Assembly: GCF_009696685.2 (NCBI RefSeq)
Contig: NZ_CP102355.1
Location: 682,001 to 746,000 of the forward strand
Length of the DNA: 64,000 nucleotides
Reading direction: 5' to 3'
DNA from: Paracoccus sp. SMMA_5_TC
GTDB taxonomy: Bacteria > Pseudomonadota > Alphaproteobacteria > Rhodobacterales > Rhodobacteraceae
The translations under genes were made by a program, and so were the position numbers. The notes beneath the pieces were generated by a model that saw only the letters and a list, made by a program, of their open reading frames with translations, had not been told where the DNA came from and searched no databases. This document shows positions 1,485-17,548 of the stretch, piece by piece; position 1 is the stretch's first letter, and each line of letters begins with the position of its first letter.

Positions 1485-4400
1485 TCACGGCTGTTCGTTC
1501 AGCGGCGGAAGGGATGCCACGATGCGCACGGTTTCGAGGCTGACGCGCACAATCCGCTTTACCAGGTCCACGATATAGCGCGGGTCTTCGGACCAGTCGT
1601 TCGGGTCATTCCTGATGCCGCTTTCCTTGTGGATGGTCACGGCATAGCGTTCCATCACCCATTCCAGCGCGGATTTGCCGTTCACCACATAGTCGTAGGC
1701 TTCCAGCGGGATGCCGCGCAGGGTGACGTGGGGGTTGAAGACGATGACCGAGCGGTCCTTTTCACCGCCGCGCTTGCCGAAGACCATCTTGTGAACGCGC
1801 CAGTCGGCGGCTTCCATCACCAGACGGCTGTAATCTTCGGTCAACGGGTAAGGCTCCACCGTCTCATAGCCCAGATGCCACCGGCCCAGTTCGCGGCCCG
1901 CATTGCTGAAGGCACGGAAATCGGCGGCATAGGGGATGCGGGGGACCATCTTTTTCAAGTCGGAGGCGAAGCGATCCTTGTATTCAGGGGAATGCAGGAT
2001 GCCGTAGACATACCAGAAGATGTCTTCCTTGCTGATGGCGTCGTCCGCGTAACGGCGGCGGAACTCGCCCAGCGCCCAATCGGAAATCGCATCGCGGCGG
2101 ATATAGCCTTCGGCGTCGGCGGTCGCACCGTTCGCAAACATCTCACCCTGCCGTCTGCCGCGCGTCTCATCGGGGTAATCATACCAGTACAGCGGGAAGC
2201 CTTGGCCCTTGGACACAAGTTCGTAGTCGGGAACGCTGGCGGTCACAAAGGCAGAGAATGCCTTGTTTGCTCCACTCCCGGCTGCGCAGATCACAAGGTT
2301 CTGATGCCGTGGCGTCGGGAACAGACGGGGCTGTTGGTAGACCATTTCGTTCATTCGACGGTCGAAATAAAGCCATTGGCGCTGAAACGGACGGTAGGCC
2401 CCCTGCACAAGTGCACTATCGTCAAAGGCATAGGCTTTGTTCCGTGTCACGTCGGCCTTCAAGGCGCGTGACCAACTGATGTTGCGCGGGTCGGTGTCGA
2501 CGACCTTTTCCACCGGCGGCCATTCGTCCTTTTGCAGCCCGGCGCAGGTGCGGGCATAGCGGCCCCGTTCGGCCTCATAGGTTTCGATCATGCGGCTCAT
2601 GTTCGCCGCCAGAACCTCGCGGCCCGAATTGTAAGCCCAAGCATCGCGCGAGGTCAGAACGCCCTGCGAATAGGTATCGAAAATCGCGCCGCCTTCGGTG
2701 CCTTCCTTGTCGCCCAGCGGCACAAACGCATCAAAGGCCGGATCGCGTTGGTTGATCCAGTCGCCTTCCGCATTCGGGCGCAGGCGTTGCCAGGGCATCC
2801 GGTCGATGCTGGCGAAGTCGTCAATGATCGTCAGCTTTTCCTCGCGGCTCAGGTAATCCCCGATGTCGTGGTAATGCAGTTGGCAGGGGCCTTCGTGGGC
2901 CGGGTCTTTCACCATCAGTGTGATGGCAACGGGGGTGCGGGACCCGGAACCGAAAATCTTGCCACCTTCGCGCCGCGACTCCTCGCCCGAAGTGCGCTGA
3001 TTGCCCCGCAGGTTGAAGATGTAGAGGTGGCTGAATTCACTGGCCAAAGACAGGCGCAGCCCGTCCATATTGTTCGCCTCCAGGAACGATCCGTTGGTCA
3101 CATAGGCAACGATGCCGCGATCCGCGATGCGGTCGGATGCCCAGCGGATGGCACGGATATAGCTGTCATACAGGTTTTTCAGCAGCTTGGCGTTCGACCG
3201 TTCGGCATAGGTGGCCCGGATGCGCCCATCGAGCGTGGGATAGGCCAGATTCTTGTTATTGTCATTCTCGCTGTCTTGCTGCGCCGAATAGGGCGGGTTG
3301 CCGACGATCACCTGAATGGGATGGGCAAGTTGCCGTTCGGCGCGTTCGTTGTTTTCGGGCAGCACCACGCGGTCCACCAGATCGCCGTCTTCGGTCATCT
3401 GGAAGGTGTCGACCAGGATCATCCCGTCAAACGGGCGATAGCTGCCCGTCGCGCCGTGATAGGCGGTCTCGATGTTCACCGTGGCGATGTAATAGGCCAG
3501 CAGCACCAGTTCGTTGGCATGCAATTCGCCGCCGTATTTGCGTTCCAGCGCCTCGGGGGTGATCAGCCCTGACTGGATCAGCCGCACCAGGAAGGTGCCG
3601 GTGCCTGTGAAGGGATCAAGGATTTGCACCCCGTCGCTGGACAGGCTTTGGCCGAAGTGGCGGCGCAAGGCGACATCGGCGCTGCGCAGGATAAAATCCA
3701 CCACGGGAACGGGCGTGTAGACGATGCCAAGCCGTTCCGCCATGCGGGGGAAGGCATTGTTGAAGAACGTGTCGTAGAGGTTGCGGATGATGTCCTGTTT
3801 GGACTTGTCGCTTTTCGCCAGGCTGATGCGCTCGCGCACGTTGTCGTAGAACCGTTGCAGGCCCTCGGTCTCGCTGTCCACCGATCCGGCATCAAGCTTC
3901 TGAACGATGGCTTCCAACGCGCGGCCCACGGCGTTGTGGGCCGGGAAATCGGTGCCCGCGAACAGGGCCTGAAAGACGGGCATGGTCAGGATGTGCTGTG
4001 CCAGCATTTCCACCGCATCGTCGGATGTGACGGCAGGGTTCAACGTGTCTTGCAGGCCTTTGACGAAGCGGGCGAATTCATCGGCCACCTCGGGGCTGCC
4101 CGAGATCATCGCCTTGATGCGGGCAATCAGGCGTTCGGCCACGGTGCCGATGGACTTGGCCCATTCGCTCCAATATTCGCGGTCGCCCAGTTTCTTCGGG
4201 ATGGCGGCATAGACGGCTTCGCTTATGGCGTCGATTGGCAGCGCCGGGAAATCGAGCGGCAGGGTATCGCTGCCGCCGCCTTCGCCCTCGCCGGTCTCTT
4301 CGCCGCCCGAGACAACCTTGATCTTGCGGCGGAATTCGGCCTCGTCGACCAGGCTGTCGTCATGGGCGCGAAGGGCCTTGATCACCTTCCAGATGCTGCG

Positions 4401-6293
4401 GAACTGCGGATCGCTTTCGATATAGCCGTTGTAGTCGGCCACATTCTTGGACGGCATGCAGACGGGCAGGATGATGTAGCCGTATTTCTTGCCCGCCGCC
4501 TTGCGCATGACGCGGCCGACCGACTGCACGATGTCGACGATGGATTCTCTCGTGTCGAAAAACACCACGGAGTCCAGCGCGGGCACGTCAATGCCTTCGG
4601 ACAGGCAGCGCGCGTTCGAAAGGATGCGGCATTTGCCCGAACCGGGGTTATCTTTCAGCCAGTCCAGCGCCGAAGACCGTTGCAGGGCATTCATCGTGCC
4701 GTCGACGTGTTGCAGGTGGCAATCCACCATGCCGGGAACGTCTTCGGGCTGATAGCTTTCGGCATAGAGTTCGGCCAGCTTGCCGAACACCTCGGTGATC
4801 TGTTGCGATGCCTTGATGGACCGCGAAAAGGCCACCGCGCGGCGCATCGGTTCGGTGTCTTCGGTCAGGGCTTCCTGTTCGCCGTCCTCGTCCACCAGGA
4901 CAAGGCCCTTTTTCGACAGGCCCTTCCAGCTTCCAACGATCTTGGTGGCGAAGTTGATGTCGATAGCTTTCTTGTCGTCCAGCCGATAGGCGCGGTTGTA
5001 GCGGTTGGCCACGTCGCCCATCTTGTCCTGTTCGACGGCGACGATCAGCACCTTGTATTCCGACAGCAGGTCACGTTCGACGGCCTTGCCAAAGCCCAGC
5101 CGGTAGAATTCCGGGCCGAAGGTGTCGGGATCGTCCATCGAGAACAGGACGGCTTCGTTCTGATCGGCCTTGGTCTTTGATGCGTCGGCATAGATGCGGG
5201 GCGTGGCTGTCATGTAGAGGCGCTTTGCCCCCCGCACCACGCCGTTGCTGTGGACTTTCACGAAGTCGGACGGGTCTTCGCCCGGCAGGGTCAGGCCGGT
5301 GGTCCGGTGCGCCTCGTCGCAGATGATCAGATCGAAATCGCCCAGCCCAGCGCGCTGGGCGTCTGCGACAACTTGGATGGATTGGTAGGTCGAGAACACG
5401 ACAACGCGCCGCCCATGGGTCAGTGCCTGTGCCGCCGATGCCAGCTTGCGCGCGTCGGTTGTGGCCGGATATGCAAGGTCATGGGTGCGAAGGTCTTCCT
5501 CGTCGCGGCCCACCTTGCTGTCGGAACACACCACGAAGGCATGGATCGGGTCATGCGCCTGTGCCGTCCATTCCCGCAGCGTCTGCGCCACCAGCGAAAT
5601 GGACGGGGCAAGGAACAGGACACGCCCGCCCTCGGGCACGATGGTTTCGGCAAGCCGCAGGGACGTGAAGGTCTTGCCTGTGCCGCAAGCCATGATCAGC
5701 TTGCCCCGGTCCACCGTTTGCATGCCTTCCAGCACGGCGGCAATGGCTTCATCCTGATGCGGCAGAGGGGTTTTCTTGGGGCGCAGGCGGATCAGGTCAG
5801 GCCGGGTAAGGCTGAATTCCGTCCAGTCAATCGGGCTTTCGGCAAGGTCGGACAGGCTGATCCGCGAAACGGGGATGGTCTGCCCTTCGATGGCGCTTTC
5901 GGCGTTCCGGTTCCATTTGTCGGTGGTCGACACGACGATGCGGCGCGCGAACAGCTTGCTGCCGTCATTGGTGGCGAACTGCTTGCCCGATGCCGACAGG
6001 AAGGAATCTATATCGGGTTTCTGAATCGTGTGATTCGGGTCAAAGAACTTGCACTGGATCGCCCAATAGTCGCCCGTAGCCTTCTCGCGGGCCACAAGGT
6101 CAATGCCAACGTCAGCGCCCCAGCGGTCCTGCCATTCTTCCCAAAGCCAGACATGTTCCAGTAGGTCGGAATACTGCGGGTCCCGGACCAGGTAATTTGC
6201 GATCAGGCGTTCGAACAGCCTGCCCTTGCCGCGCTCGTCGCTGGAAAGGTCCCGAAATTGCGAAAGAATTCGATCAATATGTTCGCGGCTCAT
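1485..6293 (-). CDS. Type ISP single-polypeptide restriction-modification enzyme
   Basis: This is a 1602-residue protein with the domain order of the LlaGI/LlaBIII class (type I single polypeptide). An Mrr-like nuclease lies near residues 30-110, with catalytic Asp65 and a QCK motif ending at Lys82. A superfamily 2 helicase/translocase follows, with Walker A (CGTGKT, Lys207), DEAH (from 326), a TATPR motif and motif VI (QSVGRVMRK). The N6-adenine methyltransferase has motif I DPFTGTGTF (from 893) and motif IV NPPY (Asn999). The C-terminal few hundred residues would be the target-recognition domain. Such enzymes methylate one strand of an asymmetric site and cut when two translocating enzymes collide. 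I prefer the ATG at 6293 because the protein then begins like other family members. An ATG at 6374 would add 27 residues and overlap the upstream gene. All key motifs are intact. Confidence 0.93.
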   Translation of the reverse strand: MSREHIDRILSQFRDLSSDERGKGRLFERLIANYLVRDPQYSDLLEHVWLWEEWQDRWGADVGIDLVAREKATGDYWAIQCKFFDPNHTIQKPDIDSFLSASGKQFATNDGSKLFARRIVVSTTDKWNRNAESAIEGQTIPVSRISLSDLAESPIDWTEFSLTRPDLIRLRPKKTPLPHQDEAIAAVLEGMQTVDRGKLIMACGTGKTFTSLRLAETIVPEGGRVLFLAPSISLVAQTLREWTAQAHDPIHAFVVCSDSKVGRDEEDLRTHDLAYPATTDARKLASAAQALTHGRRVVVFSTYQSIQVVADAQRAGLGDFDLIICDEAHRTTGLTLPGEDPSDFVKVHSNGVVRGAKRLYMTATPRIYADASKTKADQNEAVLFSMDDPDTFGPEFYRLGFGKAVERDLLSEYKVLIVAVEQDKMGDVANRYNRAYRLDDKKAIDINFATKIVGSWKGLSKKGLVLVDEDGEQEALTEDTEPMRRAVAFSRSIKASQQITEVFGKLAELYAESYQPEDVPGMVDCHLQHVDGTMNALQRSSALDWLKDNPGSGKCRILSNARCLSEGIDVPALDSVVFFDTRESIVDIVQSVGRVMRKAAGKKYGYIILPVCMPSKNVADYNGYIESDPQFRSIWKVIKALRAHDDSLVDEAEFRRKIKVVSGGEETGEGEGGGSDTLPLDFPALPIDAISEAVYAAIPKKLGDREYWSEWAKSIGTVAERLIARIKAMISGSPEVADEFARFVKGLQDTLNPAVTSDDAVEMLAQHILTMPVFQALFAGTDFPAHNAVGRALEAIVQKLDAGSVDSETEGLQRFYDNVRERISLAKSDKSKQDIIRNLYDTFFNNAFPRMAERLGIVYTPVPVVDFILRSADVALRRHFGQSLSSDGVQILDPFTGTGTFLVRLIQSGLITPEALERKYGGELHANELVLLAYYIATVNIETAYHGATGSYRPFDGMILVDTFQMTEDGDLVDRVVLPENNERAERQLAHPIQVIVGNPPYSAQQDSENDNNKNLAYPTLDGRIRATYAERSNAKLLKNLYDSYIRAIRWASDRIADRGIVAYVTNGSFLEANNMDGLRLSLASEFSHLYIFNLRGNQRTSGEESRREGGKIFGSGSRTPVAITLMVKDPAHEGPCQLHYHDIGDYLSREEKLTIIDDFASIDRMPWQRLRPNAEGDWINQRDPAFDAFVPLGDKEGTEGGAIFDTYSQGVLTSRDAWAYNSGREVLAANMSRMIETYEAERGRYARTCAGLQKDEWPPVEKVVDTDPRNISWSRALKADVTRNKAYAFDDSALVQGAYRPFQRQWLYFDRRMNEMVYQQPRLFPTPRHQNLVICAAGSGANKAFSAFVTASVPDYELVSKGQGFPLYWYDYPDETRGRRQGEMFANGATADAEGYIRRDAISDWALGEFRRRYADDAISKEDIFWYVYGILHSPEYKDRFASDLKKMVPRIPYAADFRAFSNAGRELGRWHLGYETVEPYPLTEDYSRLVMEAADWRVHKMVFGKRGGEKDRSVIVFNPHVTLRGIPLEAYDYVVNGKSALEWVMERYAVTIHKESGIRNDPNDWSEDPRYIVDLVKRIVRVSLETVRIVASLPPLNEQP

Positions 6294-6363
6294 GCCTGCT
6301 TCTGCCGTAACTTTTTCAACCGTTAGACCACTTCCCCCTATCGACTTGCAAGCTGAAACTCTT

Positions 6364-7308
6364 TCACGCCTCATGCGACCACATGCGCTGGGCTTGGGTG
6401 AAGGCCTGCTTGTTTTTCTGAGCCTTGCGGGATTTCAGCCAGCCCATGTCATAGCCGAAACGTTCAAAGAATACGGTCTGAGCAGGCGTCAGCAGATGCA
6501 CCGCCTGCAAGGGGGGAAAGAACGTCACCCCCTCGCCATCCCGCCGTGTCTGGCGTCCACTCGTCGTCCTGCGCTCGGCCATGAGCGGGCGCAGGTGCAG
6601 CGCCACCTTGTCGGCATGGTGGGGCGAAGCTTGCTCGATCGACTGGAAGAACGCGCTGACCAGCACATCGGCCAGTTGCAACCCGGCAAGGCCTGACGCC
6701 GGGGCGCGCTCGATCAGGCTGTAGCGCAGCACGGCCTGATCGATGTCGCGCGTATCGAGATAAGTGGTGCCCGCCGTGGCCTGATTGATCTTTTGCTGGA
6801 TATAAGCCTTGAACCGCCCGAAATGATGCCCCCTGCGGCTGGCCATGACGATGCGCAGGGCGGGGCTTTCGATCCCGTGGCGCTGGGCGTGATGGGCGAC
6901 GCAATGGGTCACTCGTTCCAGCAGAAGCCGCACAACCCAGTTGTAAAGATAGTCGCGCGGATTGCCCGATGCCGCCGCCGCGCGGGGGTTGTGGTGGTTC
7001 AACATGGTCTGCTTGAGCGAACAGACGACAAAGCCCCGCGCGGGATTGCCCTTGCTGGCCAGCGTCTGCGTAGCCAGCGCTTGGCTTGCGGGTTTGAGGT
7101 TGCGGAAATGCAGCACGCCGCCCGGCTTCTGCCAGATGGCGCGCAGGATTTCATCCCTGCGCCGGTCCAGATCGGATTCAGCCTCGGCCCGGACGAGATA
7201 GCCGCCCAGGCACAGCCATTCCGAGTTTCCATCCGGGGTTCCGGGTTTCAGGCGTTCAACCTTGTCGTCGCCCGCCTCGTCAATGAACAGGGTGTAATGG
7301 TAATTCAA
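6364..7308 (-). CDS. DUF3800 family protein
   Basis: The 314-residue protein begins with the family signature FIDEAGD (residues 8-14) and has the later conserved LQLADVLVSAFF segment, which together mark DUF3800, a group predicted to have an RNase H-like fold with acidic catalytic residues. The start is TTG at 7306-7308, preceded by AAGGA at suitable spacing; no ATG fits better. It lies directly upstream of the type ISP gene and would overlap it by 11 bp if that gene started at 6374. DUF3800 genes are often found in defence islands, so a role linked to the restriction system is likely, but no function is shown by the sequence. Confidence 0.8.
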   Translation of the reverse strand: MNYHYTLFIDEAGDDKVERLKPGTPDGNSEWLCLGGYLVRAEAESDLDRRRDEILRAIWQKPGGVLHFRNLKPASQALATQTLASKGNPARGFVVCSLKQTMLNHHNPRAAAASGNPRDYLYNWVVRLLLERVTHCVAHHAQRHGIESPALRIVMASRRGHHFGRFKAYIQQKINQATAGTTYLDTRDIDQAVLRYSLIERAPASGLAGLQLADVLVSAFFQSIEQASPHHADKVALHLRPLMAERRTTSGRQTRRDGEGVTFFPPLQAVHLLTPAQTVFFERFGYDMGWLKSRKAQKNKQAFTQAQRMWSHEA

Positions 7309-7364
7309 ACCGGGTCCTTAAGTGGGTATGGCCGATCATCTGGAGGTTGTGCCAGATCGTCAAG

Positions 7365-7583
7365 TTACACCAGGGGTTCATCATCCCGCGCGGCTTGGTA
7401 GCAGCCCCAGACAAAGCGCGCGGCAATCATGGCGTCTCGGTCGCCTTTCCGTTTCAGATAGGCGCGCAGATCAACCCAGGCGCGAATGTCGAGCATGTTG
7501 CGGTCGCCCAGCGCGTCCTTCACGAAAGATGCGAATTCGGGTTCCCAGGACTGGGGCATGCGCAGGTATTCGATGAAGGTCAT
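7365..7583 (-). CDS. Small protein, possibly YozE-like (SAM-like fold)
   Basis: A 72-residue soluble protein with a good GGAG ribosome-binding site nine bases before the ATG. Its spacing of conserved aromatic and hydrophobic positions (FIEYL near the start, FASFVKDAL, then WVDLRAYL and VWGCYQA) resembles the small YozE/sterile-alpha-motif-like domain, with FxxYL, FA...D, YL and W..Y landmarks. The resemblance is by eye and unproven. It sits 56 bp upstream of the DUF3800 gene on the same strand and may be the first gene of that operon. Confidence 0.55.
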   Translation of the reverse strand: MTFIEYLRMPQSWEPEFASFVKDALGDRNMLDIRAWVDLRAYLKRKGDRDAMIAARFVWGCYQAARDDEPLV

Positions 7584-7927
7584 GGTGCGTTACTCCGCTG
7601 TGCGGGTGGCGTGATTGCGCCCGATGGTGAACCCAGTGAACCTGTTGAACCCCCGTTTTATATATTGCCGCCCGGGACGCACAGCCCACCCCTCCGGCCC
7701 CACCGCTGCCGTTCCATCACCAAGGGTTTTGGTAGAGCCATATGGGTTCACTGGGTTCGCTCCCGGCGCAAGGCACTGGAAAAAAGCATGAAAATGCTGA
7801 ACCCAAGCGCCATTCGCTGCGTTCACGCCGGGTTCACTCGGTTCACCTTTACAAAGGGCAAACGCGCTGCAACCGATGACCCGGCAAAAGCGATGATCGG
7901 TTGCAGGCGATGGTGGAACCTGCCGCA
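7584..7927. other. Noncoding segment with iteron-like repeats
   Basis: About 345 bp between the primase/helicase gene and the 72-residue gene. It contains nine GTGAACC-like units, one GGGACGCA copy at 7674 and no convincing gene. It probably also holds the promoter of the leftward cargo operon. Confidence 0.6.
7627..7846. repeat. GTGAACC iteron-like repeats, candidate replication origin
   Basis: Exact GTGAACC (or its complement GGTTCAC) occurs at 7627, 7636, 7745, 7831 and 7840. One-mismatch copies occur at 7645, 7754, 7797 and 7820. Within each cluster the spacing is exactly 9 bp (7627/7636/7645, 7745/7754, 7831/7840). The units encode different amino acids in different frames, so they are conserved as DNA. 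They abut the 3' end of the primase/helicase gene. From memory, the type I iterons bound by the P4 alpha protein contain a similar GGTGAAC core. Confidence 0.65.
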
Positions 7928-10066
7928 TCACGGCCGCACCCAACGGTTGCCGCGACCGGTATGCTTGGATTTCCAGCCCAGCATTCTCAAGGTGCCCGCA
8001 ACCTGCTTTGCATTTGTGCCGTTCTGCTTTTCAGTCGGGATGCGCAGAAGCGTCAGCACCTCGGCAACCGTCACGCTGTCCTTCGGCTGCCGGTCAAAGC
8101 CGTCGCCTTCGGTCAAGTCGTCCAGGATACGCCGTATAGGCTCATCCCAAGGGTGTTCTTCGCGGACGGCTTCCTGTTCAATCTTGGCCAACTGTTCCAG
8201 TTCGGGCGGCAGGTGCCAGGCTTCTCCGGCCCGGAAGGCTGCGGCTGCCTCAGCGAAAAGCTGTTCCCGATCTGCCGCAAGTCCTTCGGTGTCAATCCGC
8301 GCCCCACAAGTCACGGGCCAGTAGCGCCGCCCGCCGCTGGCATCCCGCAGAAAGGCGGTTTCATTCGTGGTCCCAACGAAAACGCACTGGCGAGGAACAA
8401 TGTCTGCCCGGCGCGCATATGGGGCGCGGATTTCATCTGCGGCGCGTGTCAGGAAGGCCTTCAAATCTTCCTGTTCCGCCTTACGCGACGGGGCGAGTTC
8501 GGCCAGTTCCACCACCCAATGCCCGCGAAGGTATAGCCCGGCTTCCCGCGCCCCATCGCGGATCGAGGGCATGTTGTCACCTGACCAGTCACCGCCCAGA
8601 ATGCGGCAGGCGGTTGACTTGCCGATGCCCTGCGCCCCGCCCAGCACCAGAACATGATCGTGCTTGCAGCCCGGCCGCATGACGCGCGCCACCATTGCGA
8701 CCAGGAAGGCGCGCCCCACGGCAAGGGAATAGGTGGATGCGTCGACGCCAAGGTAGCGGGTCAGCCAAGTATCGAGGCGCGGCTTGCCGTCATGGTGCAG
8801 CGACTCCAGCCAATCCCGGACCGGGTGATAGCGGTTCAACTCGGCAACGGCCCGAGCCGCGCCCGCGGTCAGGTCTGCCCCTACGTTGTGCATTCCGGCC
8901 TGTTCAATCGCCACGCGGATCAATCCCAAATCGGCGTCATTGATCGGCCCGGCGCGCCATTCGTCTTGCCCGGTCATCTCGTTCTTGCGGATCGAATAGC
9001 CTTGGTCTCGGTTCACCTTGCGCAAAATCAGAATGGCATTGTGCAGCGTCGGTTTCATTTCGCCGTTCTTGCCTGTGATTATTCCGATCCTCGCTTGTTT
9101 CGCTTCCGCAGGAAGTGCAGGAAGATCGTCAAAATCATCATCCGAAACGTAGACCTGCCAGTGGCGCTCATATCCTTCAATTCCAATTTCACGGAACATC
9201 TGACGCAAACCCTTGGCGTTCTGCTTGTCAGCCTTGAACGATTTCCAAACGTCCCGCGAGTCCCTTTCGTCGTGTTTGGATGATGCCTTTGCCCAATCGT
9301 TCCAAATCGAATATCCCTCTTTCGATCCTGCGAATTGGTGATGCAGGGCCATGCCCACATCCTTCCAATCGTCGCGGTCATCCACGTTCAGGGCTTCAAA
9401 GAGTCGCGCCAAGTGTTCCTGATTCACCGCGTCAAGAGGCGCGACTGGTTCCCCGCTGCCGTCATGTTGCTGCCACGCGCCGAACCGTGCCAGTGACTCC
9501 GGGGCAATCTGCATGGCAAGGGGGAAGCCCAATTCCAAGGGGCGTTCCCAGCGGTAGGGCTGCCCTGTTACAGGGTGAAGCGACGGCGGCAGAACGGCTT
9601 GTGAGCCGGTGCCCAGAAGGTCAATTTCCCAATCGAATTTCTTCACATCGCGGCCTTTGGCAGGGTCAAAGACCATCGTGAATCCGTCCGAACGGGCCAG
9701 CTTTCGTTTGCGCATCGCCACAGGTGACAGGAAGTAAAGGTGCCGCGACTCCCCGCCGCTGCCACTCACCACAGAAGGGAAGCCCCTGGCGGCAGGCCAC
9801 AGGGCCAGAAGCGCCGTCCATGCTTCCCTGGCCTTCCTGGCGTCCCGAATGTCAAGGTCGACCAAGTGCAGGAAGTCCCCGCCGATCTGTGACGGCTGCC
9901 CAAGGCGAATGCCGATATTCTGCCCTCGCCGGTAGCTGCGGCGCAGGTCTGATTCGCTGCGGTTCGGCAGTTCGGACCAGCGCGCGTCGACCGGGTTCTT
10001 CGCCTTGATGTGAAGCCAATGCAGCGATGCGCCCGCGCCAATCAGGTCGCAGTTGATTTGATCCAT
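7928..10066 (-). CDS. Primase-polymerase / VapE-type helicase (element replication protein)
   Basis: With the ATG at 10066 the protein has 712 residues. The N-terminal part (about 10-200) matches a bifunctional primase-polymerase domain, including LHLVDLDIRD, which would hold the metal-binding acidic residues. A PriCT-like segment follows (EALNVDDRDDWKDVGMALHH). The C-terminal half is a VapE-family P-loop helicase with Walker A GGAQGIGKST (Lys483) and a Walker B/sensor region (VVELAEL, FVGTTNE). Such proteins replicate satellites and integrative elements. The frame stays open to a TTG at 10187-10189 with an AAGGA site, which would add 41 residues. I prefer the ATG because GGGACGCA repeats run right up to it, as they do upstream of int, but the longer form is possible. 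Confidence 0.85.
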   Translation of the reverse strand: MDQINCDLIGAGASLHWLHIKAKNPVDARWSELPNRSESDLRRSYRRGQNIGIRLGQPSQIGGDFLHLVDLDIRDARKAREAWTALLALWPAARGFPSVVSGSGGESRHLYFLSPVAMRKRKLARSDGFTMVFDPAKGRDVKKFDWEIDLLGTGSQAVLPPSLHPVTGQPYRWERPLELGFPLAMQIAPESLARFGAWQQHDGSGEPVAPLDAVNQEHLARLFEALNVDDRDDWKDVGMALHHQFAGSKEGYSIWNDWAKASSKHDERDSRDVWKSFKADKQNAKGLRQMFREIGIEGYERHWQVYVSDDDFDDLPALPAEAKQARIGIITGKNGEMKPTLHNAILILRKVNRDQGYSIRKNEMTGQDEWRAGPINDADLGLIRVAIEQAGMHNVGADLTAGAARAVAELNRYHPVRDWLESLHHDGKPRLDTWLTRYLGVDASTYSLAVGRAFLVAMVARVMRPGCKHDHVLVLGGAQGIGKSTACRILGGDWSGDNMPSIRDGAREAGLYLRGHWVVELAELAPSRKAEQEDLKAFLTRAADEIRAPYARRADIVPRQCVFVGTTNETAFLRDASGGRRYWPVTCGARIDTEGLAADREQLFAEAAAAFRAGEAWHLPPELEQLAKIEQEAVREEHPWDEPIRRILDDLTEGDGFDRQPKDSVTVAEVLTLLRIPTEKQNGTNAKQVAGTLRMLGWKSKHTGRGNRWVRP

Positions 10067-10214
10067 TGGGACGCATGGGGACGTATTCGGCCCCTCTGGG
10101 ACGCAAAGCAAATCCGAAAGATCGGTATCTATAAAAACGGTAGGGGGTTGAAATTCGGCCGCGCCGATGGTAATCTCAGGGTGCTTCAAAGCTTCGCTTC
10201 CTTTTCTATTGAAG

Positions 10215-10240
10215 GCCCGCGGTGTCCAGTCGCGGGCTTT
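10215..10240. other. GC-rich hairpin between int and the primase/helicase
   Basis: A perfect 7-bp stem (GCCCGCG/CGCGGGC) with a 9-base loop, followed by TTT on the plus strand. It lies in the leader upstream of the leftward primase/helicase gene. It could be a weak terminator or an RNA structure in the leader; I cannot tell which. Confidence 0.35.
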
Positions 10241-10297
10241 CGCATTTCATTCTCCGAGTTGGATATTACCACGGGGCGTTTTATTGAGTCGACTGTG

Positions 10298-10335
10298 ATA
10301 AAATAGAAAGGGCCGCACTTTTTACTGTGCGGCCC
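10298..10335 (-). terminator. Rho-independent terminator of int
   Basis: A perfect 9-bp stem (GGGCCGCAC/GTGCGGCCC) with an 8-base loop at 10310-10335. On the minus strand it is followed by the T-rich run TTTCTATTTTATC. It begins 25 bp after the int stop codon, so it should end the integrase transcript. Confidence 0.85.
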
Positions 10336-10360
10336 CTTGAATGAATTCGCTGACGCGCCC

Positions 10361-11572
10361 TTAGCCGCCAAGCAAATCCGTTAAATCGGTTTCTGATTTA
10401 TTCACCGATTGACTTTCCTTCTTGTCCAGAAGGTCAGAATACCAGCACATCATGCGCCGCCGTTCCTCAAGGTAGAGTGCCGCGTTATAGGCGCTGCGAA
10501 CCTCATTCGCGGGGACGTGCGCAAGCTGCCGCTCGATCGCATCGGCCCGCCACAGGCCCGATTCGTTCAGGATGGTTGACGCGGTGCTGCGAAATCCGTG
10601 AACCGATGCGCGGGAGTGGTAGCCCAGCCGGTAAAGCCCATAGATCAGCGTATTTTCGGAAACCGGCTTGTGCCCGGACTGGCCTGGCAAGACCCATTGC
10701 GAACCGCCTGCCAAGTCCTTGAGTTCCACGAACATGGCCTGCACTTGCGGGGACAGGGGCACGATGTGTTCCTTGCGCATCTTCATCTTTTCAGCGGCGA
10801 TGCGCCATGTGTCCCCGTCCAGTTCATCCCATGTTGCCAGCCGCAGTTCTGCGGTGCGAACAAAGGTGTGCGCAATGATCTTCAAGCCCAGCGCGGTTGC
10901 CCGGTCCCCGCTGTAGGTTTGCAGCGCCTTGAGGAAGTCGGGCAGTTGATCTTCCTTCAAGGCTGCCCGGTGCTGTTGCCGGGGTGCAGACTTCATCGCA
11001 CCTGCAAGGGGCGCGGCAGGGTCAGAGGAAGCCCAGCCGTTCGCCACGGAAAAGCGAAAGATCGCGCTCATGGTCTGGCGCAGCCGTTTTGCCATTTCGA
11101 GGGCGTTGCGGTTTTCGACGTCGCGCAACAGGGCCAAGACTTCGGCAGGGGTGATCGCTGCCACGTCCTTGGTGCCGATCTTGGGGAACACGTCCGCGTC
11201 AAGGCGCGACCAGATGCGCGCTGCATAGCCGCTGACCCATTGGGCTTCCCGCGCGTTGAACCATTCCCGCGCGGCGTCCTTGAAGGGCTTCATGGGCGCA
11301 GTGCCTGTCGCCGTGCCTTTCTTCGCGGCCGGGTCTATCCCCGCTGCCAGCTTGTCCTTGAGTTCGGCGGCTTTCAGGCGGGCAGTCGCAAGGGAAACAT
11401 CGGGATACGATCCGAAGGCAGCGGTGCGCTGTTTCGCCTGCCAGCGATAGTTCATGCGCCACAGTTTTGAGCCGCTTGGCGTCACTTGCAGGAAGAGTCC
11501 GCGCCCGTCCGACAGCTTCTGAACCTTCGCGGCAGGCTTGACGGCGCGGCATTGGGCATCGGTCAAGGGCAT
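10361..11572 (-). CDS. int: P4-type tyrosine integrase
   Basis: A 403-residue site-specific recombinase. The N-terminal arm-binding domain (DUF4102-like, MPLTDAQCRAVKPA...) is followed by the core-binding and catalytic domains. Visible catalytic residues are the Arg in RTAELRLATWDE, the Lys in MKMRKEH, HGFR (His and Arg) and His in AHVPANEV. The Tyr is in the segment SAYNAALYLEERRRMM, the usual P4-family C-terminal signature. I chose the ATG at 11572 because GGAG lies 8 bases upstream and the family normally begins MPLTD; an in-frame ATG at 11608 lies within repeats. The gene lies next to the 3' end of the tRNA, as expected for integrases using a tRNA attachment site. It appears intact. Confidence 0.95.
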   Translation of the reverse strand: MPLTDAQCRAVKPAAKVQKLSDGRGLFLQVTPSGSKLWRMNYRWQAKQRTAAFGSYPDVSLATARLKAAELKDKLAAGIDPAAKKGTATGTAPMKPFKDAAREWFNAREAQWVSGYAARIWSRLDADVFPKIGTKDVAAITPAEVLALLRDVENRNALEMAKRLRQTMSAIFRFSVANGWASSDPAAPLAGAMKSAPRQQHRAALKEDQLPDFLKALQTYSGDRATALGLKIIAHTFVRTAELRLATWDELDGDTWRIAAEKMKMRKEHIVPLSPQVQAMFVELKDLAGGSQWVLPGQSGHKPVSENTLIYGLYRLGYHSRASVHGFRSTASTILNESGLWRADAIERQLAHVPANEVRSAYNAALYLEERRRMMCWYSDLLDKKESQSVNKSETDLTDLLGG

Positions 11573-11586
11573 GGCTGCGACTCCGT

Positions 11587-11629
11587 TTGTTGGTATCGCG
11601 GGCATCATACCAACAATTCATACCAACAA
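11587..11629. repeat. Three ATACCAACAA elements upstream of int
   Basis: ATACCAACAA occurs at 11607-11616 and 11620-11629, 13 bp apart, with an inverted copy TTGTTGGTAT at 11587-11596. The elements lie from 15 to 57 bp upstream of the preferred int start, the place expected for an operator or integrase/excisionase binding sites. They would control int expression or recombination. Confidence 0.65.
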
Positions 11630-11677
11630 AAGACGGGACGCATGGGGACGCATCGGGCGGCATGGGGACGCAGAATG

Positions 11678-11708
11678 AGGTAAGCCACTGTTTTTAAGTG
11701 GATTACCT
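11678..11708. repeat. Hairpin/palindrome between int and the tRNA
   Basis: AGGTAA-G-CCACT, a 7-base loop, then AGTGG-A-TTACCT forms an 11-bp stem with one central mismatch. No T-run follows on either strand, so a DNA-binding site near the attachment site is as likely as an RNA hairpin. It is flanked by GGGACGCA copies at 11665 and 11716. Confidence 0.6.
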
Positions 11709-11737
11709 TCAATCCGGGACGCATAGGGACGAATTTT

Positions 11738-11813
11738 TGGTAGGCCCGGAGGGATTCGAACCCCCAACCAAGGCGTTATGAGCGCCCTGCTCTGACCGTT
11801 GAGCTACAGGCCC
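11738..11813 (-). tRNA. tRNA with CAT anticodon, probably tRNA-Ile2
   Basis: A full cloverleaf folds on the minus strand. The 7-bp acceptor stem is GGGCCTG/CGGGCCT with two G-U pairs, the discriminator is A, and the CCA is encoded at 11738-11740. The D arm contains TAGCTCAACGGTCAGAGCA, the anticodon loop is CTCATAA, and the T loop is TTCGAAT. The anticodon arm and variable region (CTCATAA...CGCCTTGGTT) resemble the minor isoleucine tRNA whose C34 is changed to lysidine by TilS, rather than elongator or initiator tRNA-Met. That identity call is by resemblance. The 3' end borders the integrative element. Confidence 0.9.
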
Positions 11814-11969
11814 CGACCGCTTCCAGATTTGGCCCGACCCGACGGCCGCGTCAAGGCGCAGACTGAACGCGGCTTCGTGTTGACGCAGCAAGCCGCGTGG
11901 GTGAGCATATGACGGAACCGCGCACGCAGATCGGCGTTGAGCGGCGTTCCCTGTAAAAAGGCTCCTGTC

Positions 11970-12575
11970 ATGTCGGATTTGCTTGTAATTGCCTTCAACG
12001 ACGAGGCCAGCGGCTTCGAACTGCGCACCGAACTGGTCAAGATGCAGAAGGAATATCTGATCGAGCTTGAGGATGCGGTCGTCGTCACCCGCCCCAGCGC
12101 CGACGATATCCAGCTGCACCAGGCGGTGAACCTGACGGCGGCGGGCGCGCTGGGTGGCGGTTTCTGGGGCACTCTGGTGGGGCTGCTGTTCCTGAACCCG
12201 CTGCTGGGGGCGGCGGTGGGCGCGGCCTCGGGCGCCATTGCCGGCCGGCTGAGCGACGTGGGCATCAACGACGATTTCATGCGCGAACTGGGCAATTCGA
12301 TTCCGCCCGGTGGCTCGGCCGTGTTCATCCTGGTGCGCAAGATGACCGCCGACAAGGTGCTGGCGCGACTGGAAAACTATCACATGAAGGGTCGAGTGCT
12401 GCAATCCTCGCTGCCCGAGGCCGAGGAACAGCGCCTGCGCGACGCCTTTGCCGGCGGCAAGCTGGGCTCGGCCCTTGGCATGCCGCAGGCAGATGCGGCC
12501 GTTGCGCCCAGCGTCGTGCCGCCAACCGGCAGCGCCGCACCGGCCAGCGGCAGCAGCGGAACGTCGGGGGCGTAA
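11970..12575 (+). CDS. DUF1269 family membrane protein
   Basis: A 201-residue protein starting MSDLLVIAFNDE with an AAAAAGG site just upstream. The conserved N-terminal alpha/beta part contains LVIAFNDEASGFELRTEL. A Gly/Ala-rich hydrophobic hairpin at about residues 55-90 (GGGFWGTLVGLLFLNPLLGAA) is typical of DUF1269 membrane-associated proteins, followed by a conserved SAVFILVRK strand. The C-terminal tail (about 165-201) is Ala/Pro/Ser-rich and low in complexity. The function of the family is unknown. It stands alone between the tRNA gene and mtgA, 76 bp upstream of the latter. Confidence 0.85.
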   Translation: MSDLLVIAFNDEASGFELRTELVKMQKEYLIELEDAVVVTRPSADDIQLHQAVNLTAAGALGGGFWGTLVGLLFLNPLLGAAVGAASGAIAGRLSDVGINDDFMRELGNSIPPGGSAVFILVRKMTADKVLARLENYHMKGRVLQSSLPEAEEQRLRDAFAGGKLGSALGMPQADAAVAPSVVPPTGSAAPASGSSGTSGA

Positions 12576-12651
12576 TCGCCTTAGCAGACCCGGATTTCCG
12601 TGGGTCATCTGGCGCTTGACGCGGCAGGGCGGGACGTGACAGGACGCATCC

Positions 12652-13383
12652 ATGCCGTCCAGCACCGACCTGCCCGACCCCTCCAGCCGCCCCGCCCGCC
12701 GCGGGATTGCCGCGCGGGTGGTCCGGCGGGCTGTCGAGTGGTTGCGCTGGCTGGCCGTCAGGCTGCTGGCGCTGATGTTCGTGATCGTGTTCCTGCTGTC
12801 CTTCATCAACCCGCCGACGACCTGGACGATCCTGGAGGGGCAGTGGCAATACCCTGACCGGCCGGCGCGCAAATGGGTCGATCTTGACGAGATGTCGCCC
12901 CATCTTGTGCGCGCCGTCGTCGCCGCCGAGGATGCCAATTTCTGCCGGCACTGGGGGTTCGACATGACCGAGATCCGCAAGGTCATCGCGTCAGGCTCGT
13001 CCCGGGGCGCCTCGACCATCACCCAGCAGACGGCCAAGAACGTGTTCCTGTGGCAGGGCCGAAGTTGGCCGCGCAAGCTGATGGAAACACTTTATACCCC
13101 GATGCTCGAGGCGTTGTGGTCCAAACGCCGCATCGCCGAGGTCTATCTGAACGTCGCGGAATTCGGGCGCGGCGTCTTTGGCGTCCATGCCGCCGCCGCC
13201 CATTATTACAACACCACCCCCGACCGGCTCAGTCTGCGTCAGGCCGCGGCGCTGGCCTCGATCCTGCCGGCACCCAAAAGCCGCAATCCGCAGACCGGCT
13301 CGGCCCGCACCCGGGCCATCGTCAGCGGTGCCCAGACGATCCAGGCCGACGGTCGCGATGCCTGCCTGCGGCTTGGGCGTTGA
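12652..13383 (+). CDS. mtgA: Monofunctional peptidoglycan glycosyltransferase
   Basis: A 243-residue GT51 enzyme that polymerises lipid II glycan strands in the periplasm without a transpeptidase domain. After a cytoplasmic basic N-terminus there is one membrane anchor at about residues 35-58 (LLALMFVIVFLLSF). The GT51 motifs follow: AAEDANFCRHWGFD with the catalytic Glu, then GASTITQQTAKN, then RKLMETLYTPMLEALWSKRRIAEVYLN. The length fits MtgA rather than a bifunctional class A penicillin-binding protein. It is not clearly in an operon; the GST gene starts 86 bp later. Confidence 0.95.
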   Translation: MPSSTDLPDPSSRPARRGIAARVVRRAVEWLRWLAVRLLALMFVIVFLLSFINPPTTWTILEGQWQYPDRPARKWVDLDEMSPHLVRAVVAAEDANFCRHWGFDMTEIRKVIASGSSRGASTITQQTAKNVFLWQGRSWPRKLMETLYTPMLEALWSKRRIAEVYLNVAEFGRGVFGVHAAAAHYYNTTPDRLSLRQAAALASILPAPKSRNPQTGSARTRAIVSGAQTIQADGRDACLRLGR

Positions 13384-13469
13384 TCCGCCGGCATCCCCAT
13401 CGCGGTTGAAACCGCATGCCTGCGGGCGTATCAACGCCAAGGCCCGCGTTTGACCCGGTTATTTCCCAG

Positions 13470-14156
13470 ATGAACACTTCGTCCAATTCCACGATCCGCC
13501 TTTATCATATCGCCCTGTCCCCGTTCTGCCGCAAGGTGCGCCTGGTGCTGGCCGAAAAGCGCATCGAGGTCGAACTGGTCGAGGACCGCTTCTGGGAGCC
13601 GGGGTCCGAAATCCTGCGCCGCAACCCCGCCGGCAAGCTGCCGGTGCTGCGCATGGACGGGCGGTTGCTGGCCGAAAGTCAGGCGATCTGCGAATATCTG
13701 GACGAAATCCAGCCGCAGCCGCCGCTGATGCCGCGCCTGGCCATCGAACGCTACGAGACCCGCCGGCTTTGCGCCTGGTTCGACGACAAGTTCAACGCCG
13801 AGGTGACGCGGCCGGTAATGACCGAACGGGTGTGGAAAAAGGTCATGCGGCTGGGTTACCCCGATTCGCGCACCGTCAAGGCCGGGTTGTCGGCGGTGCG
13901 CTATCATCTGGATTACATGCGCGGCCTGCTGGAACAGCGCCGCTGGCTGGCGGGCGACAGCATGACGCTGGCCGATTTCACCGCCGCCGCGCACCTGTCC
14001 TGCCTGGACTATATCTCGGACGTGGACTGGACCCATTCGGCCGAGGTTCAGGAATGGTATGCCAAGATCAAGTCGCGGCCGGCCTTCCGCAGCCTGCTGG
14101 CCGATCATGTGCCGGGCATCCACCCGGCGCCGCATTATGCCTTGCTGGATTTCTGA
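13470..14156 (+). CDS. Glutathione S-transferase family protein
   Basis: A 228-residue protein with an N-terminal thioredoxin-like domain ([20 protein letters not shown], with the SPFC segment at the usual glutathione-binding spot; NPAGKLPVL and ESQAICEYL are the conserved cis-Pro and glutathione-contact motifs). An all-helical C-terminal domain follows, with the GDSMTLADF motif. It would conjugate or reduce substrates with glutathione in the cytoplasm; the substrate cannot be told. The ATG at 13470 places the domain at the normal distance from the N-terminus. Its stop overlaps the start of queG by 20 bp, suggesting coupled expression. Confidence 0.9.
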
Positions 14157-15180
14157 TCCCGACCAGATCCGCGCCCGGCTGCAGGATCAGGCCCGGGCGG
14201 AAGGCTTTGCCGCCATGGGTATCTGCGCGCCCGATGCCCTGCCCGAACTGCCGGCACGTCTGGCGCAGTTCCTGGCGCGCGGCTACCATGGCCAGATGAA
14301 CTGGCTGGCCGAGCGGACGGGCTGGCGCGCCGATCCCGCCAGCCTGTGGCCCGAGGCGCGTTCGGTCATCATGCTGGCCGAGCTTTACACCCCCGACCAT
14401 GACCCGCGCGCGGTCCTTTCCTGCCCTGATCGCGGTGCCGTCAGCGTCTATGCCCATGGCAAGGATTACCACGACCTGGTCAAGAAACGGCTGAAACGCC
14501 TGGGCGGCTGGCTGGTCGGCCTGACCGGGGCGCAGATCAAGGTCTTTGTCGATACCGCCCCGGTGATGGAAAAGCCGCTGGCGCAGGCCGCGGGCCTTGG
14601 CTGGCAGGGCAAGCATACCAACCTGCTGTCGCGCGACCTGGGCAGCTGGTTCTTTCTGGGGGCGATCTTCACCACGCTGGACCTGCCGCGCGACGCGCCA
14701 GAACGGTCGCATTGCGGTTCCTGCCGCGCCTGTCTGGACGCCTGCCCGACCGATGCCTTTCCCGCGCCCTATCAACTGGATGCGCGGCGCTGCATTTCCT
14801 ATCTGACCATCGAACACCGTGGCCCGGTCGATCCGGCGCTGCGCCCGGCCCTGGGTAACCGCATCTATGGCTGCGACGACTGCCTGGCCGCCTGTCCCTG
14901 GAACAAGTTCGCCCGCAGCGCCAGCGAGTTGCGCTATCACGGCCCGCATGGAGCACCGGCCCTGGCCGAACTGGTGCAGCTGGACGATGCCGGCTTTCGC
15001 GCGCGTTTCGCCGGCAGCCCGATCAAGCGCATCGGCCGCGACCGCATGGTGCGCAACGTGCTTTACGCGATCGGCAATTCCGGGCTGGCGCCGCTGCGGC
15101 CGCTGGCGCAGGCGCTGTGCGCGGACGCCGACCCGGCGGTGGCCGATGCCGCCGCCTGGGCCTGCGCGCGCCTGTCATGA
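14137..15180 (+). CDS. queG: Epoxyqueuosine reductase
   Basis: A 347-residue enzyme that reduces epoxyqueuosine to queuosine in tRNA, the last step of queuosine synthesis, using cobalamin and two 4Fe-4S clusters. The cobalamin-binding N-terminal region includes YARGKDYH-like YAHGKDYHD and VDTAPVMEK with the likely catalytic Asp. The clusters are given by [16 protein letters not shown] and [13 protein letters not shown]. The start at 14137 ([12 protein letters not shown]) is chosen because it is the last ATG before the conserved region and overlaps the GST gene by 20 bp; no clear Shine-Dalgarno is seen. The stop overlaps the transporter ATG (ATGA). Confidence 0.93.
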
Positions 15181-16145
15181 GCGGGCCGTCCCCAGCCCCG
15201 GCCCCGCCCGGGGCCGAGTCTGCCCCGCTTCGTGGCATCGTGCTGAAATGCCTCAGCGTGCTGGTGTTCACGCTGATGGCGGCGCTGATCAAGGCCACTT
15301 CTGATGGCGGATCGGGGGTGCCGGCGGGCCAGCAGGTGTTCTTTCGGTCCTTCTTCGCGATCCCGGTCATTCTGGTCTGGCTGCTGTGGCGGCGCGAACT
15401 GGCGGTCGGGCTGCGCACCCGCCAGCCGATGGGGCATTTCTATCGCGGCATCGTCGGCACTGCGGCAATGGCGCTGGGTTTCTGGGGGCTGGCGTTGCTG
15501 CCCCTGCCCGAGGTCACGGCCATCGGCTATGCCGCGCCGCTGCTGACGGTGATCTTTGCGGCCATGTTCCTGGGCGAGGACGTGCGGCTGTTCCGCCTGG
15601 GCATGGTGGCGTTGGGGCTGGCGGGGGTGATGATCGTGCTGTCGCCGCGCCTGTCCGCCGGGGCGCAGATGGGCTATCGCGAAACCCTGGGCGCGGTGGT
15701 GACGCTGGCCGGCGCGGCCTGCGCGGCGCTGGCGCAGATCTTCGTGCGCAAGCTGGTGCAGCAGGAACGCACCTCGGCCATCGTGTTCTGGTTTTCGATC
15801 ACCTCGACCTTGCTGGGCCTGCTGACACTGCCCTTTGGCTGGGTGATGCCGGATGCGCGAACCGCGGCGCTGCTGGTCAGCGTCGGGCTGCTGGGCGGGC
15901 TGGGCCAGATCCTGCTGACCTCGGCCTATCGTCATGCCGATGCCTCGCTGGTGGCGCCGTTCGAGTATGTCTCGATGCTGCTGTCGCTGGCGCTGGGCTG
16001 GTTCGTCTTTGCCGAGGCACCGACGCTGGTGATGCTGGCGGGGGCGGCGCTGATCATCACCGCCGGCATGCTGATCATCTGGCGCGAACGCCAGCTGGGG
16101 CTGGAACGCAGCCGCCAGCGCGGCGCCATGACCCCGCAGGGTTAG
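15177..16145 (+). CDS. EamA/DMT-family transporter
   Basis: A 322-residue inner-membrane protein with about ten hydrophobic helices arranged as two EamA repeats. The first ends near [20 protein letters not shown] and the second near [22 protein letters not shown], both being the characteristic end-of-repeat motifs. Members export or import small metabolites, and the substrate cannot be read from the sequence. The start is the ATG overlapping the queG stop, and a GST-queG-transporter operon is likely. Its 3' end overlaps the convergent sulfotransferase gene by 4 bp. Confidence 0.88.
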
Positions 16146-17548
16146 CGGCCGCCCTGCGGGCTGGGCGCGAAGCCGAAGGCGATGTAGTCGCGCAGATAGG
16201 CCCGGCGCGCCGCCGCCCGCAGGCCGGGATCATCCAGAAATTCCGGCACCGAACGCGGTTCGGGCAGCACGCCGGGAGTGTCCAGACCGGCACTGGCGGC
16301 CAGCCAGCCCAGATCGCGCACCAGATCGCCTTCGCGCAGCACCATGTCCGGCACGCCGAAACGGGCAAAGCCCGCCAGGATTTCCGACTGGCTGGCCCAG
16401 GCGGGCTGGCAGGGAATCGAGGTCTGGCCGTTCAGATTGCGGCGCAGGAAATCCAGGAATGCCGCGAACAGCGGCATCTGATCGACCGGCTGCATTGCCG
16501 GCAATTCGGCATCGGGCGGCAGCGGCACCCGGTGGATGTCGCGCAGCAGCTGGCGCAGCGGGGCATTCGGCCCGTTCACCACCCCCTGAAACGCCGACCA
16601 CGCCCTTAGCAGCGGATGGCGCAGCACGGTAAAGCTGCGGTGGCCGGGGTGGTCGCGTTTCCACTGCCGCAGCAGGTTCTGCTGAAAATCGCCCTGCACC
16701 GGCCCCAGCCCCCGCAGCCAGTCGGATATCCGCGACGTCGGGGCGCCACGAACCGGCATGAACACCAGGCCCCGGCCCGCCTCACAGGCCAGATAACCCG
16801 GCACCGCCGGGCCGCGGCGCGGCTCGAAATTCGGGATGCGGCGCAGGCCAAAGGGATCCATGCGCGCCAGTTCCGCCTGCATCTCGTCGAAGTTCTCGAC
16901 CTTTTCCGCCAGTTCGCCGGGGTTTTGCGGCACCTGGTCGCTGGCTGGCTGCACCAGTTCCAGATCGGTGCGTCCCAGCCAGTGCAGCAGCCCGGTCATC
17001 ACCGCAGGATCGCGCAGATCCTCGTATCCCAGCCAGAAGGCGGTTTGACCGCTGCTTTGCAGGCGATGCTGCACCCGCAGCCGGAATTCCTCGACCGCGT
17101 GCAGGTTCTGGCGAAACTCTTCGGCATCAAAACGCACGGTTGCGGCCAGCGGAACCTCGGTCTCGTTCAGCTTCCATTGGTTGGTGCTGCGCGCCAGCTG
17201 GGTGGACACATGGCTGTCCACCGGATTTCGGGTCAGCACGATCTTGGCGCAGCTGCGATCATCCAGAATCGCATCCAGCACCCGGGGGTCGTGGTCGTGA
17301 AAGTAGCGAAAACCCGCCAGATGATCGGGCCGGTCGAACAGCGCCCGCAACAGCCGCATCGGATCGGCCTCGCGTTCGGCCATGGTGATGCCGCGCAGCT
17401 CGGTCTTGTCGGGCCAGCCCAGCATCACCGGGTTGAACGCCTCGCCAAAGCAGGTGACGCGGCGGATGCGGTTCAACGTCGCCTCGAGCAGATTCGAGCC
17501 GGTGCGCATTTCGGCAAAGATGACAAAGCTGCGAAAGCCCTGGGTCAT
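16142..17548 (-). CDS. Sulfotransferase family protein (NodH-like)
   Basis: A 468-residue protein whose N-terminus FVIFAEMRTGSNLLEATLN is a 5'-phosphosulfate loop for PAPS. The 3'-phosphate-binding region is likely IVLTRNPVDSHVSTQLA (residues about 115-131), as in NodH/Stf0-type sulfotransferases. The C-terminal half contains a second motif (SFTVLRHPLLRAWSAF) that looks like another sulfotransferase P-loop/PSB segment, so the protein may be a tandem fusion of two related domains. It is the last gene of the galU operon (ATG overlaps the upstream stop by 4 bp) and would add sulfate to the polymer made by the glycosyltransferases. Confidence 0.85.
   Translation of the reverse strand: MTQGFRSFVIFAEMRTGSNLLEATLNRIRRVTCFGEAFNPVMLGWPDKTELRGITMAEREADPMRLLRALFDRPDHLAGFRYFHDHDPRVLDAILDDRSCAKIVLTRNPVDSHVSTQLARSTNQWKLNETEVPLAATVRFDAEEFRQNLHAVEEFRLRVQHRLQSSGQTAFWLGYEDLRDPAVMTGLLHWLGRTDLELVQPASDQVPQNPGELAEKVENFDEMQAELARMDPFGLRRIPNFEPRRGPAVPGYLACEAGRGLVFMPVRGAPTSRISDWLRGLGPVQGDFQQNLLRQWKRDHPGHRSFTVLRHPLLRAWSAFQGVVNGPNAPLRQLLRDIHRVPLPPDAELPAMQPVDQMPLFAAFLDFLRRNLNGQTSIPCQPAWASQSEILAGFARFGVPDMVLREGDLVRDLGWLAASAGLDTPGVLPEPRSVPEFLDDPGLRAAARRAYLRDYIAFGFAPSPQGGR

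Follow-up and report, generated by a model that had tools for sequence, protein, structure and literature searches.

The origin of phage-inducible chromosomal islands (PICI) is described, in the accessible part of PMC6092414, as the region 3′ of the rep gene, where two sets of iterons surround an AT-rich stretch; a pri-rep-ori segment is described there as driving autonomous replication. The Rep protein of Staphylococcus aureus pathogenicity islands (SaPI) and Cch2 of the staphylococcal cassette chromosome mec (SCCmec) read their iterons through the C-terminal domain, according to the accessible part of PMC7581432. Phage P4 has its ori 2.1 kb upstream of the start of the alpha gene and a further repeat region, crr, directly behind that gene. 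Here, we analyze a 64,000-nucleotide stretch of the Paracoccus sp. SMMA_5_TC genome (the window, in which all positions are counted) containing most of a 12.9-kb integrative element. Positions 7627–7846 are probably the replication origin of this element, and the predicted winged-helix domain at the C-terminus of the PrimPol-VapE initiator presumably reads it. From sequence comparison, we put the probability of this reading at about 0.84.

The segment contains five exact and four one-mismatch copies of the unit GTGAACC within 220 bp, as counted in the original prediction of an iteron cluster from the DNA letters (Table 1). The number of copies is far above that in dinucleotide-shuffled sequence, the comparison which that prediction had proposed. 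Shuffled versions of the 345-bp intergenic stretch hold on average 0.06 exact units (maximum 2 in 2000 shuffles; observed 5) and 1.12 units with at most one mismatch (maximum 6 in 300 shuffles; observed 9). Outside the cluster, every 220-bp stretch of the window has at most one exact GTGAACC. In the 3.12-Mb host genome, only two sites carry the tandem pair GTGAACC-NN-GTGAACC, both inside this cluster. On the VapE strand, the forward (F) and reverse (R) units are ordered F7840 F7831 F7820 R7797 F7754 F7745 R7645 R7636 R7627, with start-to-start steps of 9, 11, 23, 43, 9, 100, 9 and 9 bp. The predicted 9-bp spacing within clusters holds for all steps but one, which is 11 bp. The unit-bearing stretch is located between the VapE stop codon (7928–7930) and the ATG (7583) of an open reading frame (ORF) of 72 residues. 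The first unit follows the VapE stop by 81 bp, so that the iterons directly adjoin the 3′ end of the initiator gene, as in PICI, and the last unit is 43 bp from the start codon of the 72-residue ORF.

In an alignment with four related elements, the units are retained and their bases are better kept than the spacers. Unit bases identical to the window number 63/63 in locus L002, 53/63 in L034, and 59/63 in both L036 and L113, with the loss in L034 partly due to a gap spanning one unit. Spacer bases are identical at 244/278 positions in L002 and at 201/278 in each of the other three. For each mismatch unit of the window, two or more relatives have a perfect GTGAACC at the corresponding alignment position: those at 7820, 7797 and 7754 in L034, L036 and L113, and that at 7645 in L036 and L113. 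The six loci with the closest initiators, with profile scores above 1000 bits and the window included, all have arrays at the same place, built of GTGAACC in five and of another unit in one (L033). This supports the origin placed here by the original prediction.

The module resembles SaPI and PICI replicons in its homologous helicase core, in the position of the origin directly behind the initiator gene, and in two iteron sets facing each other across a gap. The satellite-replicon layout that had been proposed for the primase/VapE gene and its iterons agrees with the PICI origin 3′ of rep, as given in the accessible part of PMC6092414. The gap between the two converging unit sets of the window is 39% AT and contains one AT tract. 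Unlike SaPI and PICI, the window has a fused Prim-Pol/PriCT_2 N-terminus, another unit, a P4-like extra arm, and restriction cargo. The isolated C-terminal domain of SCCmec Cch2 binds direct repeats of a putative origin just downstream of its gene, a comparable position (PMC7581432, accessible part); Cch2, however, belongs to another helicase family (D5_N/Primase_Cterm), reads three 5-nucleotide units, and is accompanied by a separate polymerase-type primase. The module may thus function in the manner of SaPI/PICI replicons, with the addition of a P4-like arm.

The P4 core given in the original prediction is borne out by the P4 record, in which the annotated type 1 repeats of ori read TGTTCACC, the reverse complement of which is GGTGAACA. 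With GGTGAACA as forward, the P4 ori has the order FFF R FF with steps of 10, 11, 22, 43 and 10 bp. The first six units of the window have the same orientations and, at 9, 11, 23, 43 and 9 bp, spacing within 1 bp of that of P4, so the window shares the core GTGAAC, the order and the spacing of the P4 ori. P4 also has repeats behind its initiator gene in crr, which shows the R-43-FF step but does not conform to the full P4-modelled rule described below. The two systems differ in their initiators, as alpha is composed of Zn ribbon, Toprim_3, D5_N and Pox_D5, whereas the window protein is composed of Prim-Pol, PriCT_2 and VapE and is not of the alpha type. They also differ in that the P4 ori is away from the alpha gene, whereas the window array is directly behind the VapE gene. 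The family hits of the window proteins searched include none to psu, delta or sid, although no search by those names was made.

The nearest solved homolog of the window VapE is 7pds, titled PriRep1 with dsDNA (double-stranded DNA; E 3.7e-26), which we take to be a SaPI protein. In the list of structure homologs, 7ola (SaPI5) is a weaker match. Like the SaPI and PICI proteins, the initiator is a Rep-type helicase with a C-terminal DNA-binding domain, which is predicted here. In a sequence search of PDB chains with the profile of this domain, no match had an E value under 0.08; P4 alpha is absent among the 50 matches listed in either fold comparison, which excludes nothing. In pairs of loci with near-identical helicases (less than 10% difference; 27 pairs, not independent), the difference between units tracks the C-terminal domain (rho 0.59) and not the helicase (rho −0.07).

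Two Methylobacterium VapE proteins, L071 and L088, are 96% identical in their helicase columns, and half of their C-terminal columns differ, as do their units. We regard this pair as a natural change of specificity.

To place the locus within its family, we surveyed 192 VapE loci, of which 176 have distinct C-termini and 170 have 400 bp downstream (6 dropped); redundancy was removed only by identity of the last 150 residues. An array was called when the count of the commonest 7-mer within 400 bp downstream of VapE was reached by at most 1/200 dinucleotide shuffles. Arrays are located directly behind VapE in 98/170 loci, and the same holds for 1/140 upstream control stretches. By source, they are present in 18/29 loci from the order, 2/2 plasmids, 44/67 genome contigs and 34/72 viral contigs. 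By profile score, the fractions are 6/6 above 1000 bits, 12/16 at 600–1000, 12/19 at 450–600, 33/53 at 400–450, 15/34 at 380–400, and 20/42 below. Among the 70 array loci of at least 8 kb, 62 have their most repetitive 400-bp window overlapping the array region (58 alone, 4 tied). Fifteen of the 72 loci lacking an array hold a 7-mer at least six times in some 400-bp window, which is not always near the gene.

The layout tends to persist across VapE loci while the unit letters change. Units include GTGAACC, GTGACCC, GTGGACC, CTGACCCC, TGACGCA, TGTCCCAC, GGTGAGA and others; the 92 distinct consensus strings in 98 loci are automated 14-column strings and overcount the specificities. A converging FF-gap-RR core is present in 75/98 array loci, a figure partly built in by the forward orientation, which was set by a vote favoring converging arrays. 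The R-FF module occurs in 37/98 loci, most commonly with a step of 42 bp. The AT-richest 20-mer of the gap exceeds the mean of the remaining downstream region in 62/73 loci. A rule modeled on P4, written together with its thresholds after the data had been seen, is followed by 22/98 loci, as against a mean of 2.6 (maximum 9) with shuffled orientations and 7.3 (maximum 17) with jittered gaps, in 1000 runs each. The window is not among these 22 loci, as the automated unit call missed its third forward unit. We considered TG as an anchor common to all units and dropped the idea, with TG found in 69/98 consensus strings read forward and 77/98 read backward. The arrays of three Mesorhizobium loci (L040–L042) and of L050 start later, about 130–145 bp past the stop codon, with the units GGTGAGA and GGAACGA.

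Similar arrays are carried by plasmids. Eleven VapE plasmid records, among the matches listed (30 of 110), were tested, and seven of them (five circular, two linear) have arrays at no more than 1/200 shuffles, with one more borderline (4/200). The circular plasmid pGO128 has 4340 bp and five genes, with VapE as the only recognizable replication gene in a gene table that is possibly incomplete. The order of units on pGO128 is FFF R FF..RR. For L237, one of the seven plasmids with arrays, a replication initiator is annotated as well. The record of Rhodobacter phage RcCWillis passes the array test at 1/200. Our literature search found no paper on VapE iterons and none on pGO128, in a coverage that mostly leaves out subscription journals and is not proof of absence.

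The units, their conservation and layout, the similar layouts that other units form in relatives and on plasmids, the homology to PriRep1, and the att repeats were computed directly. On this basis, we hypothesize that the element would excise as a circle, on which the C-terminal winged-helix domain of PrimPol-VapE would bind the GTGAACC units. The converging arrays would place two helicase rings face to face across the gap of about 100 bp, and the origin would fire by opening of the gap at the AT tract 7655–7668. Loading of the helicases may require no host loader; priming by the PrimPol domain would follow, and a host polymerase would copy the circle.

Several observations weigh against this reading. 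An array within 400 bp downstream is lacking in 72/170 VapE loci, which argues against a general rule, and all three cyanobacterial plasmids among the eleven plasmid records are without an array. In plasmid L238, the stretch upstream of the VapE gene passes the shuffle test as well. The window gap is 39% AT compared with 40% for the whole intergenic stretch, and its AT-rich part is the tract 7655–7668 only. No excisionase was seen among the proteins searched. In pairs with up to 20% helicase difference (65 pairs), the helicase correlates with the unit as well as the domain does (0.49 vs 0.44), and L001 and L036 have a common unit despite differing in 42% of C-terminal columns. Two further propositions were dropped: that the C-terminal domain is homologous to the C-terminus of P4 alpha (hhalign probability 0.4%), and that unit and C-terminal domain correlate cleanly over all 4753 pairs (partial correlation 0.15 for the domain, 0.18 for the helicase). 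Our confidence is slightly lowered because the wider pairs fail to separate domain from helicase and because L238 passes upstream.

The units could alternatively be operators for a regulator of the cargo genes from 7583 onward, VapE acting as an autorepressor or another element protein, with a replication role that is secondary or absent. The 43 bp between the last unit and the 72-residue ORF are short enough that binding could affect its transcription. We consider operators unlikely, since a promoter and terminator scan found nothing, including no sigma-70-like promoter in 7560–7960, since arrays recur where other genes follow VapE (terminase in L034 and L037) and on pGO128, and since opposed arrays with fixed steps look like origins. 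The segment could also be an accessory site that resembles P4 crr or serves incompatibility or partition, in which case the element would have its true origin at another place. P4, which has crr behind alpha as well as its ori, offers a precedent, and the R-43-FF step of crr is the same. Nevertheless, the window array also includes the FFF R FF arm of the P4 ori, and the tandem pair is found nowhere else in the host genome, which makes this explanation very unlikely.

Slippage can produce tandem steps of 9 bp, and some 7-mer reaches five copies in 10/2000 shuffled versions of the 345-bp stretch. Functionless repeats, from chance or slippage, are nevertheless scarcely credible, as units on both strands stand at retained distances, with their bases kept above the spacers, arrays with other letters occupy the same place in relatives, and loss of units in close relatives is not seen in the four-relative alignment.

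If the segment is an origin read by VapE, the common label "virulence-associated protein E" is misleading and would often denote an origin-reading replication initiator, the origin of which could be located next to its gene, both in islands and on plasmids. The change of units with kept geometry would provide a natural data set on which winged-helix residues read which bases, and unit sets could help to predict mutual exclusion among satellites and plasmids. More tentatively, and with somewhat less than even odds, VapE initiators and P4 alpha might have a common origin architecture, in which an FFF R FF arm is combined with an opposed array and the R-to-FF step is about four helical turns. This architecture would have survived complete replacement of the unit letters and, between P4 and VapE, equally complete change of the DNA-binding domain sequence. 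The unit might be swapped together with the C-terminal domain as a cassette, with L071/L088 as a natural case, yielding origin specificities that sort satellites, plasmids and phages into compatibility groups.

Table 1 Features of the proposed origin and of the element that carries it (window positions).
Feature	Position	Strand
Outer array, three forward units (GTGAACC 7840, GTGAACC 7831, GTGAACG 7820)	7820..7846	-
Single reverse unit CTGAACC; 43 bp start-to-start to next forward pair	7797..7803	+
Inner forward pair (GCGAACC 7754, GTGAACC 7745)	7745..7760	-
Gap between converging arrays; tract GTTTTATATATTGC at 7655-7668	7652..7744	
Opposed array, three reverse units (GTGAACC 7627, GTGAACC 7636, TTGAACC 7645)	7627..7651	+
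11-bp perfect inverted repeat, without T-run, between VapE stop and first array	7867..7906	
PrimPol-PriCT_2-VapE initiator, 753 residues, TTG start	7928..10189	-
Predicted winged-helix C-terminal domain, residues 682-753, proposed unit reader	7931..8146	-
16-bp attachment (att) repeat at 3′ end of tRNA-Met (tRNA 11738-11813, -)	11737..11752	
Tyrosine integrase	10361..11608	-
72-residue ORF, function unassigned, first gene past origin; 92% identical in L035	7365..7583	-
DUF3800 protein	6364..7308	-
Type ISP restriction-modification enzyme, cargo	1485..6374	-
HEC-08/DUF3644 candidate defense protein, far end of element beside Type ISP enzyme	L193:17542-18606 = window -458 to 606	

The element spans 12.93 kb, from the 3′ end of tRNA-Met to a copy of the same 16 bp located 1.19 kb left of the window. 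The GC content of 1-kb blocks is 0.57–0.64 inside the element, 0.65 in the left-end block, and 0.67–0.75 in the flanks. The element consists of the integrase, VapE, the proposed origin, the 72-residue ORF, DUF3800, Type ISP, a 273-residue ORF, and HEC-08. Family hits of the eight proteins searched include no master repressor, xis, small terminase or capsid-remodeling gene, with small ORFs only partly searched. We assign the element neither to PICI nor to P4-like satellites, because its initiator is not of the alpha type and repressor, xis and packaging genes are unseen among the proteins searched. A stretch similar to the inverted repeat behind VapE is present in four relatives, with imperfect arms in some, and P4 has the alpha terminator at the corresponding place.

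The sibling element of Tabrizicola thermarum (L035, the same locus as L002) has an origin with GTGAACC and is identical to the window by 50% in the integrase, 76% in VapE (best segment), and 93% in DUF3800. Its restriction genes, however, are of Type III. The elements of L034 and L037 have the integrase, VapE and origin in common with the window element, and their origins are followed by genes for large terminase, portal and protease-capsid proteins; L036 has ORFs similar in size and place to these packaging genes. The L037 element of Paracoccus nototheniae (5562–17771) is 12.2 kb long, located at tRNA-Met, with a 20-bp att repeat and a GTGACCC origin. Its short ORFs include some that resemble, as read by eye, small terminase and head-completion proteins, and there is no long ORF on the capsid strand between the capsid gene and the repeat. 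No att repeats turned up in the sequence retrieved for L034 and L036. The gene set of L037 is presumably that of capsid-forming PICI (cf-PICI): terminase, portal and capsid occur with integrase, VapE and origin in L034 and L037, whereas the window element has restriction and candidate defense genes at the place of the packaging genes. Judging from the cf-PICI-like gene set of L037, the window element may be a satellite-derived replicon in which the packaging half was exchanged for defense genes, or the exchange may have gone the other way.

In the order, 27/390 genomes contain the tandem pair, at 34 places in total, and 13 places carry the pattern read backward. Among 28 loci of other tandem-pair matches (L198–L225), at least five exact units per 250 bp are present in L210, L220 and L207/L224. 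The clusters of L210 and L220 adjoin VapE, and L207/L224 represent one cluster within a Toprim_3 gene without VapE. A further locus, L226 from the same genus, has eleven exact GTGAACC units and one with a mismatch at 6564–6806, in a nearly mirror-symmetric array inside the ORF 3929–6856 (+). This ORF encodes a 975-residue Toprim_3/DUF7146 protein with the tail CEPCEPCEP, and the array is in its 3′ coding end, with no VapE nearby. The GTGAACC unit is thus shared by a replication-type gene other than VapE.
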